Origin: Candidatus Saccharimonadota bacterium
GTDB lineage: Bacteria > Patescibacteriota > Saccharimonadia > Saccharimonadales > UBA10212
Reading direction: 5' to 3'
NCBI GenBank assembly: GCA_016187125.1
Contig: JACPKF010000004.1
Coordinates: 23,868-78,933 of the forward strand
Length of the DNA: 55,066 nt
Part shown: piece after piece, positions 23-45,928 of the stretch
Layout of the letters: each line of letters begins with the position of its first letter
Position numbering within the stretch: position 1 is the stretch's first letter
Notes under the pieces: generated by a model
Databases searched by the model: none
Told to the model about the DNA's origin: nothing
Seen by the model: the letters and a program-made list of their open reading frames with translations, nothing else
Program-made: the position numbers and the translations under genes

Positions 23-937
23 TCAGGCGCCGACTTTATCCTTGCGCGGCCGTTGCTTAGCATTTTGTTCGACGTATTCAATAATCTTCTCGGCCACGTT
101 ACGGCCGGTAACTTGTTCGATCCCAAAACCCGGACTGGAGTTTACCTCCAAAACCAGCGGTCCGCGTTTACTGCGCATAAGATCAACCCCGCAAATCGAA
201 AGACCCATAGCCCGGGCAGCTTTGACGGCTACCTTTCTTTCTTCATCCGTTAACTTGATTGAAGAACCCTCCCCTCCTTGATGAAGATTGGAACGAAATT
301 CATCAACACTTAAGTTCTGGCGTTTCATACTGGCCACAACTTTGCCGCCGACTACAAAAGCTCGCATATCAGTACCGGCAGATTCCTCAACATACTCTTG
401 GAGTAAGATGTTAGTACCTTCCTGGTCCATCAGGTAAAAGGATTGAATTACAGATTTTGCGGCCTTTTTGGTTTCTGCCAAAACCACCCCTCGGCCATGC
501 GTACCACTAGCCAGTTTGATAATGATCGGCGGACCATTGAGTTCCTCCATTAAGCGGTCAATATCACCGGCACCACGCGAGAAAATCGTTTTAGGCACAC
601 CGACTCCAGCTCGGGCCAGTAGTTGCATAGCCCGCAGTTTATCGCGTGAGCGGACTATGGCAATCGAACTAGCCGTGCTAAAAACTCCTTGCATCTCAAA
701 CTGACGGACAATGGCTGTACCATAACGAGTGTACGAAGAAGCAATCCGCGGAATTATGGCGTCAAAGCCCTCTAGGGTTTTGTCCTTATAGATTACTATC
801 GGATTATTGGCCTGAATTCTGGCCTCGCAAAGCCCATAGTTAATAATGCGAACTTCATGGCCTCGCTTTAGAGCCTCCTCTTTTATACGCTTAGTGGAGT
901 AGTTACCAGGACCTTTAGATAAAATCGCTATTTTCAT
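23..937 (-). CDS. rimK: RimK-like ATP-grasp ligase (ribosomal protein S6 glutamate ligase family)
   Basis: ATP-grasp motifs (PPIIIKLASGTHGRGV, EVNSSPGFGIE). The track start at 952 is a GTG; the likely start is the ATG at 937 (MKIAILSKGPG). Confidence 0.88.
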   Translation of the reverse strand: MKIAILSKGPGNYSTKRIKEEALKRGHEVRIINYGLCEARIQANNPIVIYKDKTLEGFDAIIPRIASSYTRYGTAIVRQFEMQGVFSTASSIAIVRSRDKLRAMQLLARAGVGVPKTIFSRGAGDIDRLMEELNGPPIIIKLASGTHGRGVVLAETKKAAKSVIQSFYLMDQEGTNILLQEYVEESAGTDMRAFVVGGKVVASMKRQNLSVDEFRSNLHQGGEGSSIKLTDEERKVAVKAARAMGLSICGVDLMRSKRGPLVLEVNSSPGFGIEQVTGRNVAEKIIEYVEQNAKQRPRKDKVGA

Positions 938-941
938 CCCG

Positions 942-1046
942 TTAGAACCCACTTACCTTCCGTACTATAATTAACGTCTGAACACGTGGGCATGCTTCAA
1001 GACACATATCAACATTGTAAGTTCTTTGGGTTCTAACGGGATTCAT
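942..1046 (-). CDS. Leader ORF MNPVRTQRTYNVDMCLEACPRVQTLIIVRKVSGF*, 5 nt before the rimK ATG
   Basis: Hand translation; same MNPVR start and F-TAA-CGGG-ATG ending as leaders at 14929 and 29397; below the ORF-track length cutoff. Confidence 0.6.
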   Translation of the reverse strand: MNPVRTQRTYNVDMCLEACPRVQTLIIVRKVSGF

Positions 1047-5333: not shown

Positions 5334-7337
5334 TTATTTATCCTTCTTATCAGAATCTACAACCTCGCCTTCGACCGGCTCGTCCTTCGAAGACCCTGAG
5401 CCTGTCGAACGGGTGTCTTTTTTACCGGATTTCTTATCACTGCTTGACTCGCCATCCTTCGCCTTGCTTCCACCTTCGCCTGCTTCATCCCCCTTCGCTG
5501 AAGCTTCGGAGGACTCGTCCGCTTTTGCGGACTCGTACATTTTGGCGCCGATGGGCATGATCTTCTCACTCAAATCTTTGGCGGCTTTTTCTACTTCTTC
5601 TTTATCGGTCGCTTCCAGATGGGTCTTGGCCTCGTCAATCGCCTCTTGAAGAGTCTTCAAGTCTTCTTCGGATAGTTTGTCTTTGTACTCAGTCTTCATC
5701 TTTTCGGCTTGGTATACGGAGTTGTCCAGCTGGTTTTTGACTTCGGCCGCTTCGCGCTTTTTGCGATCTTCTTCGGCGTGAGTCTCGGCTTCTTTGGCGG
5801 CTTTTTCTACCTCGGCTTTATCTAAATTACCGCTGCCGGAAATTGTAATGCTTTGTTCTTTGCCGGTGCCTTTGTCTTTAGCCGACACATTTAAAATACC
5901 GTTGGCATCGATATTAAAAGTGACTTCGATTTGCGGCACGCCGCGCGGCGCCGGTGGAATGCCGTCCAGCACAAACCGGCCCAGGCTTTTGTTGTCGGCG
6001 GACATTTCACGCTCGCCCTGCAGCACATGAATCTCCACGCTGTTTTGATTATCGGCCGCCGTCGAAAACGTTTCGTTCTTAGAAGTAGGGATGGTGGTAT
6101 TGCGCTCAATCAGTTTGGTTGTCACGCTTCCCAGAGTTTCAATACCTAAAGATAGAGGTGTCACATCAAGCAGCAACACATCTTTAACATCGCCTTGCAG
6201 AACGCCGGCTTGAATAGCCGCGCCAATGGCTACGACTTCGTCCGGATTAACTCCTTTAAGCGGCTCTTTGCCAAAAACTGATTTTACTTTATCAATCACT
6301 GCCGGCATGCGAGTCATGCCACCCACCAGCACGATTTCGTCGATGTTTTTGGCATCAAGCTTGGCGTCTTTGAGGGCTTTTTTGACGGGCTCGGCGGTTT
6401 TATCTATCAGGTCTTGAACTAGCTCCACCAACTTGGCGCGGGTCAGTTTATATTCAAAATGCTTGGGACCTTCGGCGTCGGCTGTCAAAAACGGCAAGTT
6501 AATATCGGCAACTTCGGTGGTTGACAGTTCTTTCTTGGCCTTTTCGGCTTCTTCTTTAAGACGCTGCATAGCCGCTTTGTCATCCTTAACGTCAATACCG
6601 GACTGGTTTTTAAACTGGTCCACAAAGTGGTTGACGATTCTAAGATCAAAATCTTCGCCGCCTAGATGGGTGTCGCCATTGGTAGAAAGCACTTCAAAGA
6701 CGCTTTCGCCAAGTTGCAGAATGGATAGGTCAAAGGTGCCGCCGCCAAGGTCAAAAACGGCAATTTTTTCTTCCTTGCCTTTGTCCAGGCCGTAGGCTAA
6801 AGCGGCCGCCGTTGGCTCGTTGATAATGCGTTTGACTTCCAGCCCGGCAATCTTACCGGCGTCTTTAGTGGCTTGGCGCTGGCTGTCATCAAAGTAGGCC
6901 GGCACGGTAATTACGGCCTCGGTTACCGGCTCGCCCAAGAACTTTTCGGCGTCGGCTTTGAGTTTAGATAAAATCATGCCGCTAACTTCTTCGGGGCTGT
7001 AATCTTTACCAGCCATTTCGACTTTTACGCCTCCGGCGGCTGCCGGACCGGCTTTGACTATTTTGTAGGGCATTAATTTGATGTCTCGTTGGACTTCCTC
7101 ATCCGTAAATTTGCGGCCAATCAGACGCTTGACACCAAAAATGGTGTTGGTTGGGTTAGTTACCCGCTGGCGGTTAGCCACTTGTCCGACCAAACGCTCA
7201 CCATTTTTATTGATAGCTACCACGCTTGGCGTGGTGCGGTTGCCTTCGCTGTTGGCGATAATTTCCGGTTTACCGGCCTGCATCACGGCCATCGCCGAAT
7301 TTGTAGTACCGAGGTCGATCCCAATTATCTTACCCAT
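5334..7337 (-). CDS. dnaK: Chaperone DnaK (Hsp70)
   Basis: [30 protein letters not shown]-type motif, full length 667 aa. Confidence 0.97.
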
Positions 7338-7978: not shown

Positions 7979-8437
7979 CTAACCTTTCCTTACTTTAACC
8001 ATGGCGGGACGAACAACTTCGCTGCCGATTTTGTAGCCTGCTTGCAATTCTTCACTGACAACCTCACGTTCTCCGTCACCGTCCTCCATATGCACCGCTT
8101 CATGCAAACGCGGATCAAACCGCTGACCCACGGTTTTTATCCGCTCCAGCCCGAGCTGATTAAAGGCTGCCTCAAACTGCTTAATAACGCTTTGAACTCC
8201 CTTAAGATAATCGTGATCTTTCAGGTCATTCGGCGCGTGCACCAGGGCTCGTTCCAAGCTATCAATTGCCGGCAAAAGCTCGCGCAAAATTATTACTTTG
8301 TAAAAATTGCCCAGTTTTGCCGTGTCTTCTTCTGTGCGACGGCGAATATTAATTGCGTCGGCCCGCTCCCGCCGCAGTGCCTCTGTGAGTTCGGCAATTT
8401 GTTGCTGCAAGTTTTGAATTGTTGGTTTTTTAGTCAT
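7979..8437 (-). CDS. grpE: Nucleotide exchange factor GrpE
   Basis: LLPAIDSLERALVH, FDPRLHEAVHMEDGDGE, VVSEELQAGYKIGSEVVRPAMVKVRKG. Confidence 0.92.
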   Translation of the reverse strand: MTKKPTIQNLQQQIAELTEALRRERADAINIRRRTEEDTAKLGNFYKVIILRELLPAIDSLERALVHAPNDLKDHDYLKGVQSVIKQFEAAFNQLGLERIKTVGQRFDPRLHEAVHMEDGDGEREVVSEELQAGYKIGSEVVRPAMVKVRKG

Positions 8438-13334: not shown

Positions 13335-14924
13335 CTACTGGATTTTGATAGGTTTGAGGGCAATTTGTTTGATCTTTTTAGCAATCGGTTGGGCCTCTTC
13401 CAGCCCGAACATCGAAGACACTATAAAATGAACTACAAACGTCGGCAAAACTATAGCTACCAGCTTAGCTCCCAAAACGCTAAAGCCGCGATCGGTACTG
13501 ACAAGCGGTACCAGCGACACCATAATATAAGTCGTTAAAACGGTAAAACCGGTAACTGACAAAGTCCTGCCCACGCCACTCCAAAACTCTACGCCAAATA
13601 GTTTATGGTCTCGCCAGACCATAATAATAAGCAGCAGAAAGACTTCGAAAGCCGCCACAATTGACTGAGCCAAAGCCAGTCCAATTAAGCCGTAGGCGCT
13701 CGGTCTGGCCAGCGTGAAGACCAAGTAGACGTTTAGGCCGATGGCGAACAGCGAAACAAATAGCGGTGTTTTAGTATCTTTTTGGGCGTAAAAGTAGCGC
13801 GAAATGATGGCGTACAGAGTTCTAAAGATAATGGCACCGACTAAAAAGCCCAAAATTAAGGCAATTTCCGGCGCAATATTCTTAAAAATTAACCGGGCAA
13901 AGTAAGCGCGGCCAAAGTAAGCTACCACTCCAACCGGTAAAATAATCCAAATCATGGCCCGCAGAACCATCAAGAAGTCTTTCCGGAATAAATCCGGCCG
14001 ACCTTGGGCTAAGCGATCATTAAGCCTAGGAAAAGCTGCCGTAGCAATTGTCGTACCAATAAGTAATATTGGCACCAGATGCAGCATGTAAGCATTTTCA
14101 TAAAAAGTGATTGAACCTCTACCAAGCACACTGGCCCGATTAGTCTCCACGATACTGTTAATAGAGTCAATGCCTTGATCAATGGAACGTGGCGGCAGAT
14201 TTTTTAAGATGTGCCTAAAGTCCGGACTGCGCAGATTGAAGGTCGGCATATAACGAAAGCCCAAACCACCCAAGCCCAGGAGTACTATCAGAAGCTGCAA
14301 AATTGCTCCAGCCAAGGCTCCAACTCCTAGCCCTACTATGCCGAGACTATCTTTAAAAATATAGACGCTGGCAATGATGCAAACGTTATAAATAATCGGC
14401 CCCAGCGCAAAGAAGAAGAAACGGCCGAAAGTTTGCTGCAAAGATGTTAAAATTCCCGAAATCGTGAATAGCAACGGGTTGAGCGCAACAATCCGCATAA
14501 TGGTTACGGCGTCGTGCATTTGATCGGGGCCAAGATTATTACCGACCACCAGTCTTAGTAAGGGTTCGGTAAAAACTAGCAGGACAACACCAACAACCCC
14601 CATAATAATGCCCAGCAAATTGAGTAGGCCAGAGGTTATTTGCCAGGCTGATTTTTTATCGCCAGCGTGGAGTTTGTCGGCTAAAAAGGGCATAAAGGCC
14701 ACGCCCAGAGCCCCGGCAGCAATGGTATAGAAAAAGAAGTCGGGAATTTTGAAGGCCGCAAAATAGGCATCGGTTGTAATATGGCCCGGGCTATTGAAAT
14801 TACCATTGATAACCTGCGTTCGGATAAAACCAAGTAGCTGGCCGAATAAAGATGCCGCTACCAGCAGGGCCGCGGCACCACTAAGAGAAATACGTTGGTT
14901 AGCCCGGTTTAGCCATCGATTCAT
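13335..14924 (-). CDS. murJ: Lipid II flippase MurJ/MviN
   Basis: About 14 TM segments; GQLLGFIRTQVINGNF, AYFAAFKIPDFFFYTIAAGALGVAFMPFL. Confidence 0.88.
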   Translation of the reverse strand: MNRWLNRANQRISLSGAAALLVAASLFGQLLGFIRTQVINGNFNSPGHITTDAYFAAFKIPDFFFYTIAAGALGVAFMPFLADKLHAGDKKSAWQITSGLLNLLGIIMGVVGVVLLVFTEPLLRLVVGNNLGPDQMHDAVTIMRIVALNPLLFTISGILTSLQQTFGRFFFFALGPIIYNVCIIASVYIFKDSLGIVGLGVGALAGAILQLLIVLLGLGGLGFRYMPTFNLRSPDFRHILKNLPPRSIDQGIDSINSIVETNRASVLGRGSITFYENAYMLHLVPILLIGTTIATAAFPRLNDRLAQGRPDLFRKDFLMVLRAMIWIILPVGVVAYFGRAYFARLIFKNIAPEIALILGFLVGAIIFRTLYAIISRYFYAQKDTKTPLFVSLFAIGLNVYLVFTLARPSAYGLIGLALAQSIVAAFEVFLLLIIMVWRDHKLFGVEFWSGVGRTLSVTGFTVLTTYIMVSLVPLVSTDRGFSVLGAKLVAIVLPTFVVHFIVSSMFGLEEAQPIAKKIKQIALKPIKIQ

Positions 14925-14928
14925 CCCG

Positions 14929-15036
14929 TTAGAACCTCACCCTTGGCTTATAAAAATAATTTAACGTTGGATATCTGGAACAACTCCCACGTAAATTTAA
15001 GATGAAAGTTGCAGGCTGAGGTCTAACGGGATTCAT
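14929..15036 (-). CDS. Leader ORF MNPVRPQPATFILNLRGSCSRYPTLNYFYKPRVRF*, 4 nt before the murJ ATG
   Basis: Hand translation; 35-aa homolog of the leader at 29397..29504. Confidence 0.7.
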   Translation of the reverse strand: MNPVRPQPATFILNLRGSCSRYPTLNYFYKPRVRF

Positions 15037-28372: not shown

Positions 28373-29392
28373 TTACTTGGCTTTGATGTATTCGCTACGA
28401 CTCTGTGAGTCGTGGCCAGCGACAGCCTTTAGATCGTGGTAGTTATCGAAGTCATCGGTAATTTTTTGGCCCAAAATTTGCTCGAGCACGTTCTCTAAAG
28501 TTAAAACTCCCACAACTTCCTCGAAGTTGTTGACCACCACTAGCAAGTGCTGCTGGGATTTTAAGAAGGCATCGAGGGCTTGATGCAAAGTGTGTGATTC
28601 GCCGATAAAATGGACGCCGCCAATCATTATGTCGCGGACTGTGCCAGATTTTTCCAGGTTTTTTAACAAGTCTTTAATATAAAGAGCGCCAACAACTTCC
28701 AGATCTTGTAGCTTAGCAGCATCTTTTACCACTGGAAAATGAACGTGGCCGGTTTTATGCAGCTCGTCCATTAGCGTCGGCCCGATGGATTCGTCGGCTG
28801 CCAGCCATCTGACTTCTTTGGCCGGAGTCATGACCCGGCCGACTTTTTTATCGGCGAAACCTAGAGCGCCCTTGGCGATTTTGAGTTCACTAGCAGTGAT
28901 TCGGTTGTCTAGCTGAGAGGTCTGCCGCTCCAGTAGCTCTAGCAAGTCTTCTTTTTCATAAATCCTGCTATGGATTTTAGGCTGGTCAAAAAGCTTAGCT
29001 ACCCGAACTAATGCCGGCTGCAGAAAATCTACGACAGGCAAAATTATTGATGCAATAGCGCCGGAAGCTTGCCATAGCCAACTGCCCGGCCGAATTGTAA
29101 ACTTATCGTCTAAGAGCAGCCAGCTGGTAACTAATATAAAGACCGCTACCAGCCAACCCGAGATACTAGCCGCCAGTAGCAGTAAGACTGCGGCTGAAGT
29201 CGTACCGAGCACCAAGATAATGATTTTAAGTGAAGTTTGAAAGGCCAGCAATTTATAAAGAGCTTGAGTGTGTCTATTGCCACTTCTCGCCCGCCGGCGA
29301 AGTTCAGCCAGCGGTATGGTCTTAGAAACTTTAAAAAGCAAAATACACTTCGCTAGCACTACTGCCAAAAGTAATATGCCTATGGTTTTCAT
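28373..29392 (-). CDS. CNNM/CorC-type transporter-like protein with CBS domains
   Basis: VGRVMTPAKEVRWLAADESIGPTLMDELHKTGHVHFPVVKD, EEVVGVLTLENVLEQILGQKITDDFD. Confidence 0.82.
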   Translation of the reverse strand: MKTIGILLLAVVLAKCILLFKVSKTIPLAELRRRARSGNRHTQALYKLLAFQTSLKIIILVLGTTSAAVLLLLAASISGWLVAVFILVTSWLLLDDKFTIRPGSWLWQASGAIASIILPVVDFLQPALVRVAKLFDQPKIHSRIYEKEDLLELLERQTSQLDNRITASELKIAKGALGFADKKVGRVMTPAKEVRWLAADESIGPTLMDELHKTGHVHFPVVKDAAKLQDLEVVGALYIKDLLKNLEKSGTVRDIMIGGVHFIGESHTLHQALDAFLKSQQHLLVVVNNFEEVVGVLTLENVLEQILGQKITDDFDNYHDLKAVAGHDSQSRSEYIKAK

Positions 29393-29396
29393 CCCG

Positions 29397-29504
29397 TTAG
29401 AACCTCACCCTTGGCTTATAAAATTTGCTTGTCATGGGCAATTTGAAGCAGCTCCAACGCAAAGTTAGTGTGAAAGTTGCAGGCTGAAGTCTAACGGGAT
29501 TCAT
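29397..29504 (-). CDS. Leader ORF MNPVRLQPATFTLTLRWSCFKLPMTSKFYKPRVRF*, 4 nt before the CNNM-like ATG
   Basis: Hand translation; homologous to 14929..15036. Confidence 0.7.
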   Translation of the reverse strand: MNPVRLQPATFTLTLRWSCFKLPMTSKFYKPRVRF

Positions 29505-30356: not shown

Positions 30357-30629
30357 GCCTTTGATAGCATTATGTTCTGTAGTCTATAGCTAGTAGACTA
30401 AAAAATCGTGCCAGTTCTGACGGGCAACACTGACTCTAATTTTGCGTTGTCTTGAAGACCTAAATACCACCTTAATAGGCATTGTTTGTTTTCCTCCCCG
30501 TTTTTATTTGTAACCTTGGTCCTCCCAAAGCAACAACTGACCACAAGCTTATAAAAATTAGGGTGGCAGGTCAAGCCAAAAAAGTTTACGATAAGCGTTA
30601 GGATAAAGAGAATTCAGATTTCTAACGGA

Positions 30630-32000
30630 ATGAGCCAAAAGCCGCTAATGAAAAAGATTACCGAAACACCAGCTACCGCTTTGAGTAGTTCTATTAAAAA
30701 AACCGAACAAGTGGTGCGTGAACTGCCCTCGTCCAAACCAATTAAAAAAACCAAAGAATACTGGAATGTGTTGGGCCCAGGTCTGACTACCGGCGCCAGT
30801 GATGATGACCCCTCTGGTATCGCCACCTACTCGCAAACCGGCGCTCAATATGGATTTCAACTGCTTTGGCTGTCAGTTGTTACTTTTCCGTTGATGGCAG
30901 TTGTCCAGGAAATGTGCGCCCGCATTGGCCTGGTAACCGGACGCGGGCTGGCCGGTAATATTCGGCAGCATTTTTCTAGAAAAGTTCTATATATTTGTAC
31001 CTTACTCCTGTTCGGGGCTAACGCTTTTAACATCGGAGCCGATCTTGGAGCCATGGCCAAGGCTGTCCAATTACTCAGACCAAGCTTCAACTATAGTCTT
31101 TTGGTTATAGCGTTTGTGATTGTGATGCTGCTTATGCAAATATTTATGCCCTATGCCCGCTATGCCAAATATCTAAAGTGGTTGGCTATGGTGCTGCTGG
31201 CTTATGTGGCCTCGGCGCTGCTGGCCAATCTTAATTGGGGCGACGTGCTGCGGCACACCATCTCGCCATCAATCCACTTCACCAAAGATCAGTTACTACT
31301 GATCTGCGCCATTTTAGGCACCACAATTTCTCCATATTTGTTTTTTTGGCAAACATCTCAAGAAGTCGAAAATCAGATTCTTGAAGGCAAAACCACGGTG
31401 GCTTCGCGCCAAGGCAGCGATAAGACGGCCGTACACAGTATGCGGGTGGATGTCTGGAGCGGTATGCTGCTTTCTAATATTGTGATGTTCTTTATAATCG
31501 CCGCCAGCGGCGCTTTATTGTTCACTCAGGGAATAACTAATATTGATAGCGCCGCGGCAGCGGCTGAAGCCTTGCGGCCGGTAGCCGGTAATGCTACTTA
31601 TTTCCTGTTCGCTGTCGGCATTATCGGCACTGGACTGCTGGCTATTCCGGTCTTGGCCGGCAGTAGTAGTTACGCAGTAAGCGAGAGTTTTAAATGGCGC
31701 GAAGGTTTGTACCGCAAGTTTCGCCAAGCTCATGCCTTTTATGGCGTACTAGTTGTTTCGATGCTGATTGGTCTAGGAATAAACTTTATAGGCATTGATC
31801 CGATCAAAGCCCTAATTTACTCGGCCATAGCCAACGGCATAGTCGCGCCGGTGGTTCTAGCTTTGATTGTTGTTATTAGCAGCAATCAGCGGATCATGGG
31901 CGACTGGGTTAACAGACGTCTTACCACCTTCATGGGCTGGGCGATAACCGGGCTTATGGCAGTTGCCGGGCTAGCTGCCATTTTCGCAGTTTTTATATAG
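30630..32000 (+). CDS. NRAMP-family divalent metal transporter
   Basis: LGPGLTTGASDDDPSGIATYSQTGAQYG and about 11 TM segments. Confidence 0.88.
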   Translation: MSQKPLMKKITETPATALSSSIKKTEQVVRELPSSKPIKKTKEYWNVLGPGLTTGASDDDPSGIATYSQTGAQYGFQLLWLSVVTFPLMAVVQEMCARIGLVTGRGLAGNIRQHFSRKVLYICTLLLFGANAFNIGADLGAMAKAVQLLRPSFNYSLLVIAFVIVMLLMQIFMPYARYAKYLKWLAMVLLAYVASALLANLNWGDVLRHTISPSIHFTKDQLLLICAILGTTISPYLFFWQTSQEVENQILEGKTTVASRQGSDKTAVHSMRVDVWSGMLLSNIVMFFIIAASGALLFTQGITNIDSAAAAAEALRPVAGNATYFLFAVGIIGTGLLAIPVLAGSSSYAVSESFKWREGLYRKFRQAHAFYGVLVVSMLIGLGINFIGIDPIKALIYSAIANGIVAPVVLALIVVISSNQRIMGDWVNRRLTTFMGWAITGLMAVAGLAAIFAVFI

Positions 32001-45643: not shown

Positions 45644-45928
45644 TTAAGCTGCTTGATTTCGTATTATCTGACGCAGTGTCACTTTGCCTTTGGTTGTTTT
45701 ATAGTACCTTTCGCGCCTAATGGCATCAAGTTTGGAGAGATGCCCTTCGAAATATACAAGTTCAACGGGTAAGCGTTTGGCTGTAGAGGTATTTTTGCCT
45801 TGACTATGCTCAGCGATCCGCCGGTTTAGATCATTGGTCGAACCAATGTAAAACTTACTGTCTTGGATTGATAATAAAACATATACGTACCAGAAAGTAT
45901 CCATAGGAAAATTATAGCCCCAAACCAC
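45644..45928 (-). CDS. GIY-YIG nuclease domain protein
   Basis: YVYVLLSIQDSKFYIGSTNDLNRRIAEH; start likely MDTFWYVYVLL. Confidence 0.85.
   Translation of the reverse strand: MVWGYNFPMDTFWYVYVLLSIQDSKFYIGSTNDLNRRIAEHSQGKNTSTAKRLPVELVYFEGHLSKLDAIRRERYYKTTKGKVTLRQIIRNQAA

Follow-up and report, generated by a model that had tools for sequence, protein, structure and literature searches.

The stretch of DNA analysed here (55,066 nucleotides, the window) carries a small open reading frame beginning MNPVR directly ahead of a gene for a CNNM/CorC-like protein, and frames with the same beginning precede two further genes. This raises the question of why a RimK-like ATP-grasp ligase, the lipid II flippase MurJ and a CBS-domain protein should share such a leader. 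A preliminary description had offered two answers, a global translational control keyed to the peptide or a mobile element that targets start codons. Start codons are about the worst site for a DNA insertion, and the genomes of Patescibacteria are famous for streamlining. It is nevertheless well supported that the "MNPVR leader" is no leader-peptide gene and is a palindromic mobile DNA element of ~108 bp that inserts exactly into start codons. The fuller reading, which we consider very likely, is that of a GIY-YIG-encoded, start-codon-targeting palindromic element with MITE-like derivatives that are kept harmless by translational coupling. The features concerned are as follows.

29392..29499, minus strand: element copy at the CNNM/CBS gene, 108 bp, 106-bp class, ends TCCCGTTAGA...TCTAACGGGA
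29500..29503, minus strand: upstream copy of the TGAA duplication, within the original start codon ATGAA (29500-29504)
29388..29391, minus strand: downstream copy of the TGAA duplication, within the restored start codon of the CNNM/CBS gene
29397..29504, minus strand: leader frame MNPVR...FYKPRVRF*, 35 aa, beginning at the original start codon
28373..29392, minus strand: host gene, CBS-domain (CNNM/CorC-like) protein, 339 aa, Pfam CBS 3.5e-11
14924..15031, minus strand: element copy at murJ, 108 bp, 106-bp class, TGAA duplicated at 15032-15035 and 14920-14923
13335..14924, minus strand: host gene, lipid II flippase MurJ, 529 aa, Pfam MurJ 2.3e-61
937..1041, minus strand: element copy at the rimK-like gene, 105 bp, 103-bp class, TGAA duplicated at 1042-1045 and 933-936
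23..937, minus strand: host gene, RimK-like ATP-grasp ligase, 304 aa from the restored ATG, Pfam RimK 1.9e-56

The frame at 29397-29504 (-) encodes MNPVRLQPATFTLTLRWSCFKLPMTSKFYKPRVRF*, and exactly 4 nt (CGGG) separate its TAA from the ATG of the gene at 28373-29392 (-), as had been described; the element's terminal A is base 1 of that ATG. The Pfam matches agree with three unrelated host genes. The claim that all three carry the same leader holds for the murJ and CNNM copies, which form one subfamily with 106 bp between the outermost CCC and GGG. It fails for the rimK copy, which belongs to a different subfamily (103 bp between the same points) and has only the ends in common with the other two, encoding MNPVR and the final TAA. 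The window has six exact occurrences of TCTAACGGGAT, which form three inverted pairs; with at most one mismatch there are seven, against 0.59 expected.

A lone right end with one mismatch (TCTAACGGAATGAG) lies at 30621-30632 (+), right where an Nramp-family gene (30630-32000) starts. It has no left partner and is perhaps a decayed copy.

The ends are terminal inverted repeats of 10 bp (TCCCGTTAGA/TCTAACGGGA), inverted ends being one of the marks of a MITE. A flank-blind search for paired ends in the 828-kb genome of the window found 18 copies of 91-106 bp, and the reversed control found none; counting shorter, longer and slightly decayed ones, the genome has ~30 copies in several length classes. 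Nine of the 16 genomes of the same family contain copies, 56 in all in the flank-blind scan. The same ends are found across the Patescibacteria, in Nomura-, Kaiser-, Yanofsky-, Harrison-, Doudna- and Saccharibacteria and others.

Insertion duplicates the target TGRR. On the two sides the bases after TG are identical in 158 of 176 copies, where shuffling gives 74 on average and at most 89. Of 12 copies with GTG as the upstream start, 11 have ATG downstream; the terminal A is therefore the element's own, and the duplication is TGRR (4 bp). Empty orthologous sites are clean, so that target duplication and empty sites, two further marks of a MITE, are both present. A filled and an empty site occur within one genus at the ortholog of the CNNM gene, where G001 reads ...gtgtaaaataagagttgATGAAT[104 bp]ATGAAGCTTTTGTTTGT and G002 reads ...gtgtaaaataagagttgATGAAGCTTTTGTTTGT. 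This gene has orthologs in all 16 family genomes, and the window's insertion is also present in G015 and absent from G013 and G014. The murJ site is filled in G000 and G015 only and empty in 13 orthologs with a comparable start, a count that leaves out G002, whose match begins at query residue 126 so that the gene start is not comparable. The rimK site is filled in the window's genome only, with 13 orthologs empty. Comparison with orthologs that lack the leader is a check that the preliminary description had proposed.

G015 (L384, L399) has both the murJ and the CNNM insertions in common with the window's genome, and its congeners G013 and G014 lack them. This pattern may reflect exchange between lineages or differential loss.

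The short copies have longer relatives. Twenty-one distinct elements of 261-283 bp are bounded by the same terminal inverted repeats and contain one gene each, encoding a GIY-YIG protein. When 379 genomes of the phylum were scanned, blind to content, for these ends at a distance of 255-285 bp, 18 intervals were obtained, most with a GIY-YIG ORF, and other loci were added to reach 21. The domain scores 57.6 and 61.2 bits against a Pfam cut-off of 22.6, and the motif is intact, with the catalytic residues Y, YTG, R, H and E conserved. In the tree, the proteins from between the repeats form one clade (support 91/88) together with five that lack the ends, and the clade label requires 4 changes on the tree compared with 16.7 when shuffled. 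In some of these elements the ORF starts at the hijacked start codon (MNPVR...), and in others at an internal ATG. The ORFs that use the hijacked start have a C-terminus, ...KRFLALTG*, encoded by the right end, and their TGA overlaps the restored ATGA. Several of the GIY-YIG elements have no matching target duplication. Among the short copies, 17 of 131 have the right end of the GIY-YIG element beyond the repeat, where 0.2 would be expected, and such a common right end is expected of internal-deletion derivatives. The MITE-like copies would thus have a partner with the same ends that encodes a putative GIY-YIG nuclease instead of a known transposase.

Inverted repeats with a short target duplication are typical of transposase-driven MITEs. 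The family has both, and could have been moved by an ordinary transposase encoded elsewhere, in which case the GIY-YIG ORF would be a passenger, or else a homing gene of independent origin that had acquired the ends. It would fit this explanation that the window's genome, with its ~30 copies, has no GIY-YIG gene bounded by the repeats, although the copies there may also be relics or have moved in trans. Against it, GIY-YIG is the sole gene seen between these ends, in more than 10 families of the phylum and from one protein clade, and no larger element with a transposase was present in the fetched stretches, the systematic search covering intervals up to 400 bp. An ordinary transposase is a serious alternative but the less probable one, and the GIY-YIG protein is the favoured enzyme, even though we know of no mechanism for transposition by a GIY-YIG enzyme with a 4-bp duplication.

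Two other GIY-YIG genes were observed. One, at 45644-45928 (-) of the window, is a stand-alone nuclease gene without these ends and is one of six GIY-YIG matches in the genome. The other (L212 ~1450-1790, G002:C29) lies between direct repeats, GCCGTTAGACGATGGGG on both sides; the repeat is possibly tRNA-derived, and the arrangement suggests a second kind of GIY-YIG insertion.

Placement is nearly exclusive to start codons. In the flank-blind family scan, 54 of the 56 element pairs lie at a start codon, with RTGRRT directly ahead of the left end, and the preliminary description had named copies mostly away from start codons as what would speak against its proposal. These statistics rest on the family scan because the query of the collection scan contained the right-hand start codon. 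All copies use TGRR, whereas only 147 of 343 genes have RR after the start codon, which shows a target preference. Random insertion followed by purging of all other copies would make start codons mere survivors. Copies elsewhere in genes would indeed be deleterious, and the open frames described below imply that selection acts after insertion. However, intergenic copies away from starts should then survive and outnumber the rest, in conflict with both the 54 of 56 and the universal use of TGRR. Survival after random insertion is accordingly improbable, and insertion aimed at start codons is preferred.

TATAAT-like boxes lie ahead of 35 of 71 filled starts, often 10-16 nt before the original start. 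They precede 7 of 16 filled starts compared with 91 of 343 background genes, a weak enrichment over background starts that were chosen crudely, and promoter-linked targeting of insertion is weakly supported. Shine-Dalgarno (SD) motifs are rare at filled starts (15/71 and 9/104). Together with the nearby TATAAT-like boxes, whose enrichment over other genes is weak, this suggests leaderless or nearly leaderless mRNAs. The literature on leaderless genes in these bacteria was uninformative.

Three loci from different Patescibacteria (L228, L241, L276) have the left flank ACTTGT in place of RTGRRT, which may be an upstream sequence that is conserved or the mark of a chimeric left end. In L304 a 102-bp copy at 6361-6475, with GTTTA on both sides, lies directly upstream of another copy at ATGAGT. 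Its target is near rather than at a start codon, and the duplication is 5 bp.

Besides the three genes of the window, 26 further host genes of its genome were scanned. They include class I and II tRNA synthetases, gatC, recO, ftsH, the beta and gamma chains of ATP synthase, murB, glycosyltransferases, a sortase, a response regulator and unknowns. No functional theme was found among these target genes, the window's three included. Many of the targets, such as cysS, ftsH, recO, murB and ATP synthase beta, are presumably essential, judging from their known functions.

The ends of the copy fold as RNA into a long hairpin (-36.9 kcal/mol, z -2.65) with the restored start codon within the stem. In most classes the 2-4 bp just inside the fixed ends covary strongly, in one example with 81 double-changed cells compared with a shuffled mean of 31 and a maximum of 46; the 106-bp class has too little variation at these inner pairs to show covariation. 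The covariation indicates that a folded strand, or a palindrome kept by repair, is important beyond the sequence of the ends. The covered start codon and the covarying stem would also suit a cis-regulatory RNA hairpin, riboswitch-like or acting on translation, that is native to these genes and kept for regulation. This is quite unlikely in view of the target duplications, the presence of copies in one genome and their absence in close relatives, the lack of a gene theme and the lack of an Rfam match, and the covariation is equally compatible with a folded DNA substrate or repair of the palindrome. A mobile palindrome remains the preferred reading.

Two other structural candidates were set aside. 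The Rfam search of the window matched only a tRNA, which argues against a known structured RNA. In the 113-120-bp class, excess pairing past the first 12 pairs was patchy, and no claim is made for an inner second stem.

The frame that runs through the insert stays open as far as the restored start codon much more often than chance would allow. When translation begins at the original start, no stop interrupts 35 of the 36 Saccharibacterial copies with a length of 1 mod 3, where shuffling leaves 7.3 open on average and 14 at most. For a length of 2 mod 3 the figure is 12 of 15 (shuffled 3.1, maximum 8). The same copies are mostly closed in the other frames or on the other strand. Of 66 Saccharibacterial copies of suitable length, 60 have a leader frame that stops at the restored start: in 43 of 45 the TAA is 4 nt ahead of the restored ATG, and in 17 of 21 the two overlap as ATGA. 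Across the phylum more widely a smaller excess is seen than in Saccharibacteria, with 21 of 46 leaders open compared with 6.0 when shuffled and 13 of 34 compared with 4.6. Fewer than half of the leaders outside Saccharibacteria are open (22/47 and 13/35), and none is open among the 23 copies in which an open frame would produce a protein fusion. The 106-bp class by itself is only suggestive, since a neutral simulation left 12.7 of 19 copies stop-free on average and 19 at maximum. The case for frame constraint rests on all classes together, and because the copies are related the sample is effectively smaller than it seems.

The peptide itself shows no such constraint. The leader frame of the 106-bp class has a pN/pS of 0.90, which is not below the values of the other frames (0.61-0.90), and the Cys at residue 19, thought earlier to be conserved, is present in about 12 of 19 relatives. 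Selection thus appears to act on translatability and not on peptide sequence, which leaves little room for a regulatory leader peptide or for the nascent-chain sensing through Cys19 that had been suggested. Control of many genes by a nascent peptide that senses something through MNPVR, Cys19 and a basic aromatic C-terminus would account for the open frame and the constant spacing to the gene start, but it is hardly credible given the lack of purifying selection, the unrelated peptides of other subfamilies, one of which (not the 106-bp class) is inserted in either orientation, the absence of a gene theme and the origin of MNPVR from the target duplication and the inverted repeat.

The start-codon element may work as follows. 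Insertion into RTGRR duplicates the 4 bp TGRR, and the element's terminal A rebuilds an ATG ahead of the downstream copy, so that original and restored start codons are both present. Essential host genes would keep working because the start codon is duplicated. The short copies (59-124 bp) are non-autonomous. The autonomous form is likely to be the ~280-bp relatives, whose single-domain GIY-YIG endonuclease is often expressed from the hijacked start. At an occupied gene, ribosomes recruited by the initiation signal that the host had from the outset would translate the short frame through the insert, to a stop 4 nt before the restored ATG or to the ATGA overlap. A ribosome on the leader would then melt the hairpin masking the restored start and re-initiate on the real gene, and such translational coupling is the probable cause of the open frame. 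The family is known from sequence comparison, which gave its copies, ends, duplication, placement, empty sites and frame constraint as well as the association and clade of the GIY-YIG proteins. We infer that the GIY-YIG protein catalyses movement of the element, and also the way in which start codons are recognised.

The family is a new kind of palindromic element, specific for start codons and with one form that encodes a GIY-YIG protein; no earlier description of it was found in the open-licence papers searched. The chances are about even that it represents a class of mobile element not described before and counting among the smallest that are autonomous. In this class a GIY-YIG protein of ~90 residues with a single domain would be the whole machinery, recognising folded palindromic ends, inserting into start codons, borrowing the initiation signal of its target and handing translation back. 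The family accounts for a set of "MNPVR" mini-ORFs in Patescibacteria. If the mechanism is true, start-codon duplication and translational coupling make gene starts a safe haven for a mobile element, and the protein is a candidate minimal transposition enzyme and possibly a tool for adding DNA at gene starts while the gene is not killed.

Several known systems have partial resemblance. Like bacterial MITEs, the copies are short, encode no enzyme, have inverted ends and a target-site duplication, and occur as multiple copies in several subfamilies; they differ in start-codon specificity, in frame constraint and in having a GIY-YIG-coding relative instead of one with a known transposase. Integron attC sites are imperfectly palindromic, 60-140 bp long, and combine conserved outer boxes with inner stems that vary in sequence but stay paired. 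The present elements share this plan of palindrome, outer boxes and inner stem, but the order of the boxes is reversed (GTTAGA...TCTAAC vs ..AAC ... GTT..), and the copies are dispersed at gene starts with target duplications. Free-standing and intron-borne GIY-YIG homing endonucleases likewise have a small GIY-YIG enzyme as the sole gene of the element, but they home to one allele, whereas the present elements have inverted ends, a 4-bp duplication and many unrelated sites. Tsy transposons are site-specific and encode a GIY-YIG nuclease, but they use tyrosine recombinases and the nuclease is dispensable (PMC10293859); here GIY-YIG is the only gene. Rickettsia palindromic elements (RPEs) are palindromic repeats of ~100-150 bp that are compatible with translation in many unrelated host genes, and no nuclease-coding form is named (PMC10969869). 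Both families are thus short palindromic repeats compatible with translation of unrelated hosts. RPEs, however, are in-frame fusions within ORFs, while the present elements lie at start codons, duplicate them and have a frame that ends at the restored start. Fusions to the host protein account for only 2 of 71 Saccharibacterial copies, and the family is set apart by placement.

Some individual copies are of separate interest. At L089 ~8030-8153 (G000:C6:63031-63153) copies are nested or in tandem, with several ends in a row and one element inside the ATGA of another, and similar compound copies occur in L086 (190 bp) and L098. A few copies lie in records labelled Omnitrophota, Planctomycetes and Desulfobacterales (L243, L252, L266, L270), which may be real spread past Patescibacteria or misbinned contigs. 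A copy in a contig of a viral collection with phage-like genes (L430 3735-3828, IMGVR_UViG_3300029811_000060) lies at a gene start as ATGAAT[element]ATGAAC, with an SD-like motif upstream, and points to a possible route between hosts.
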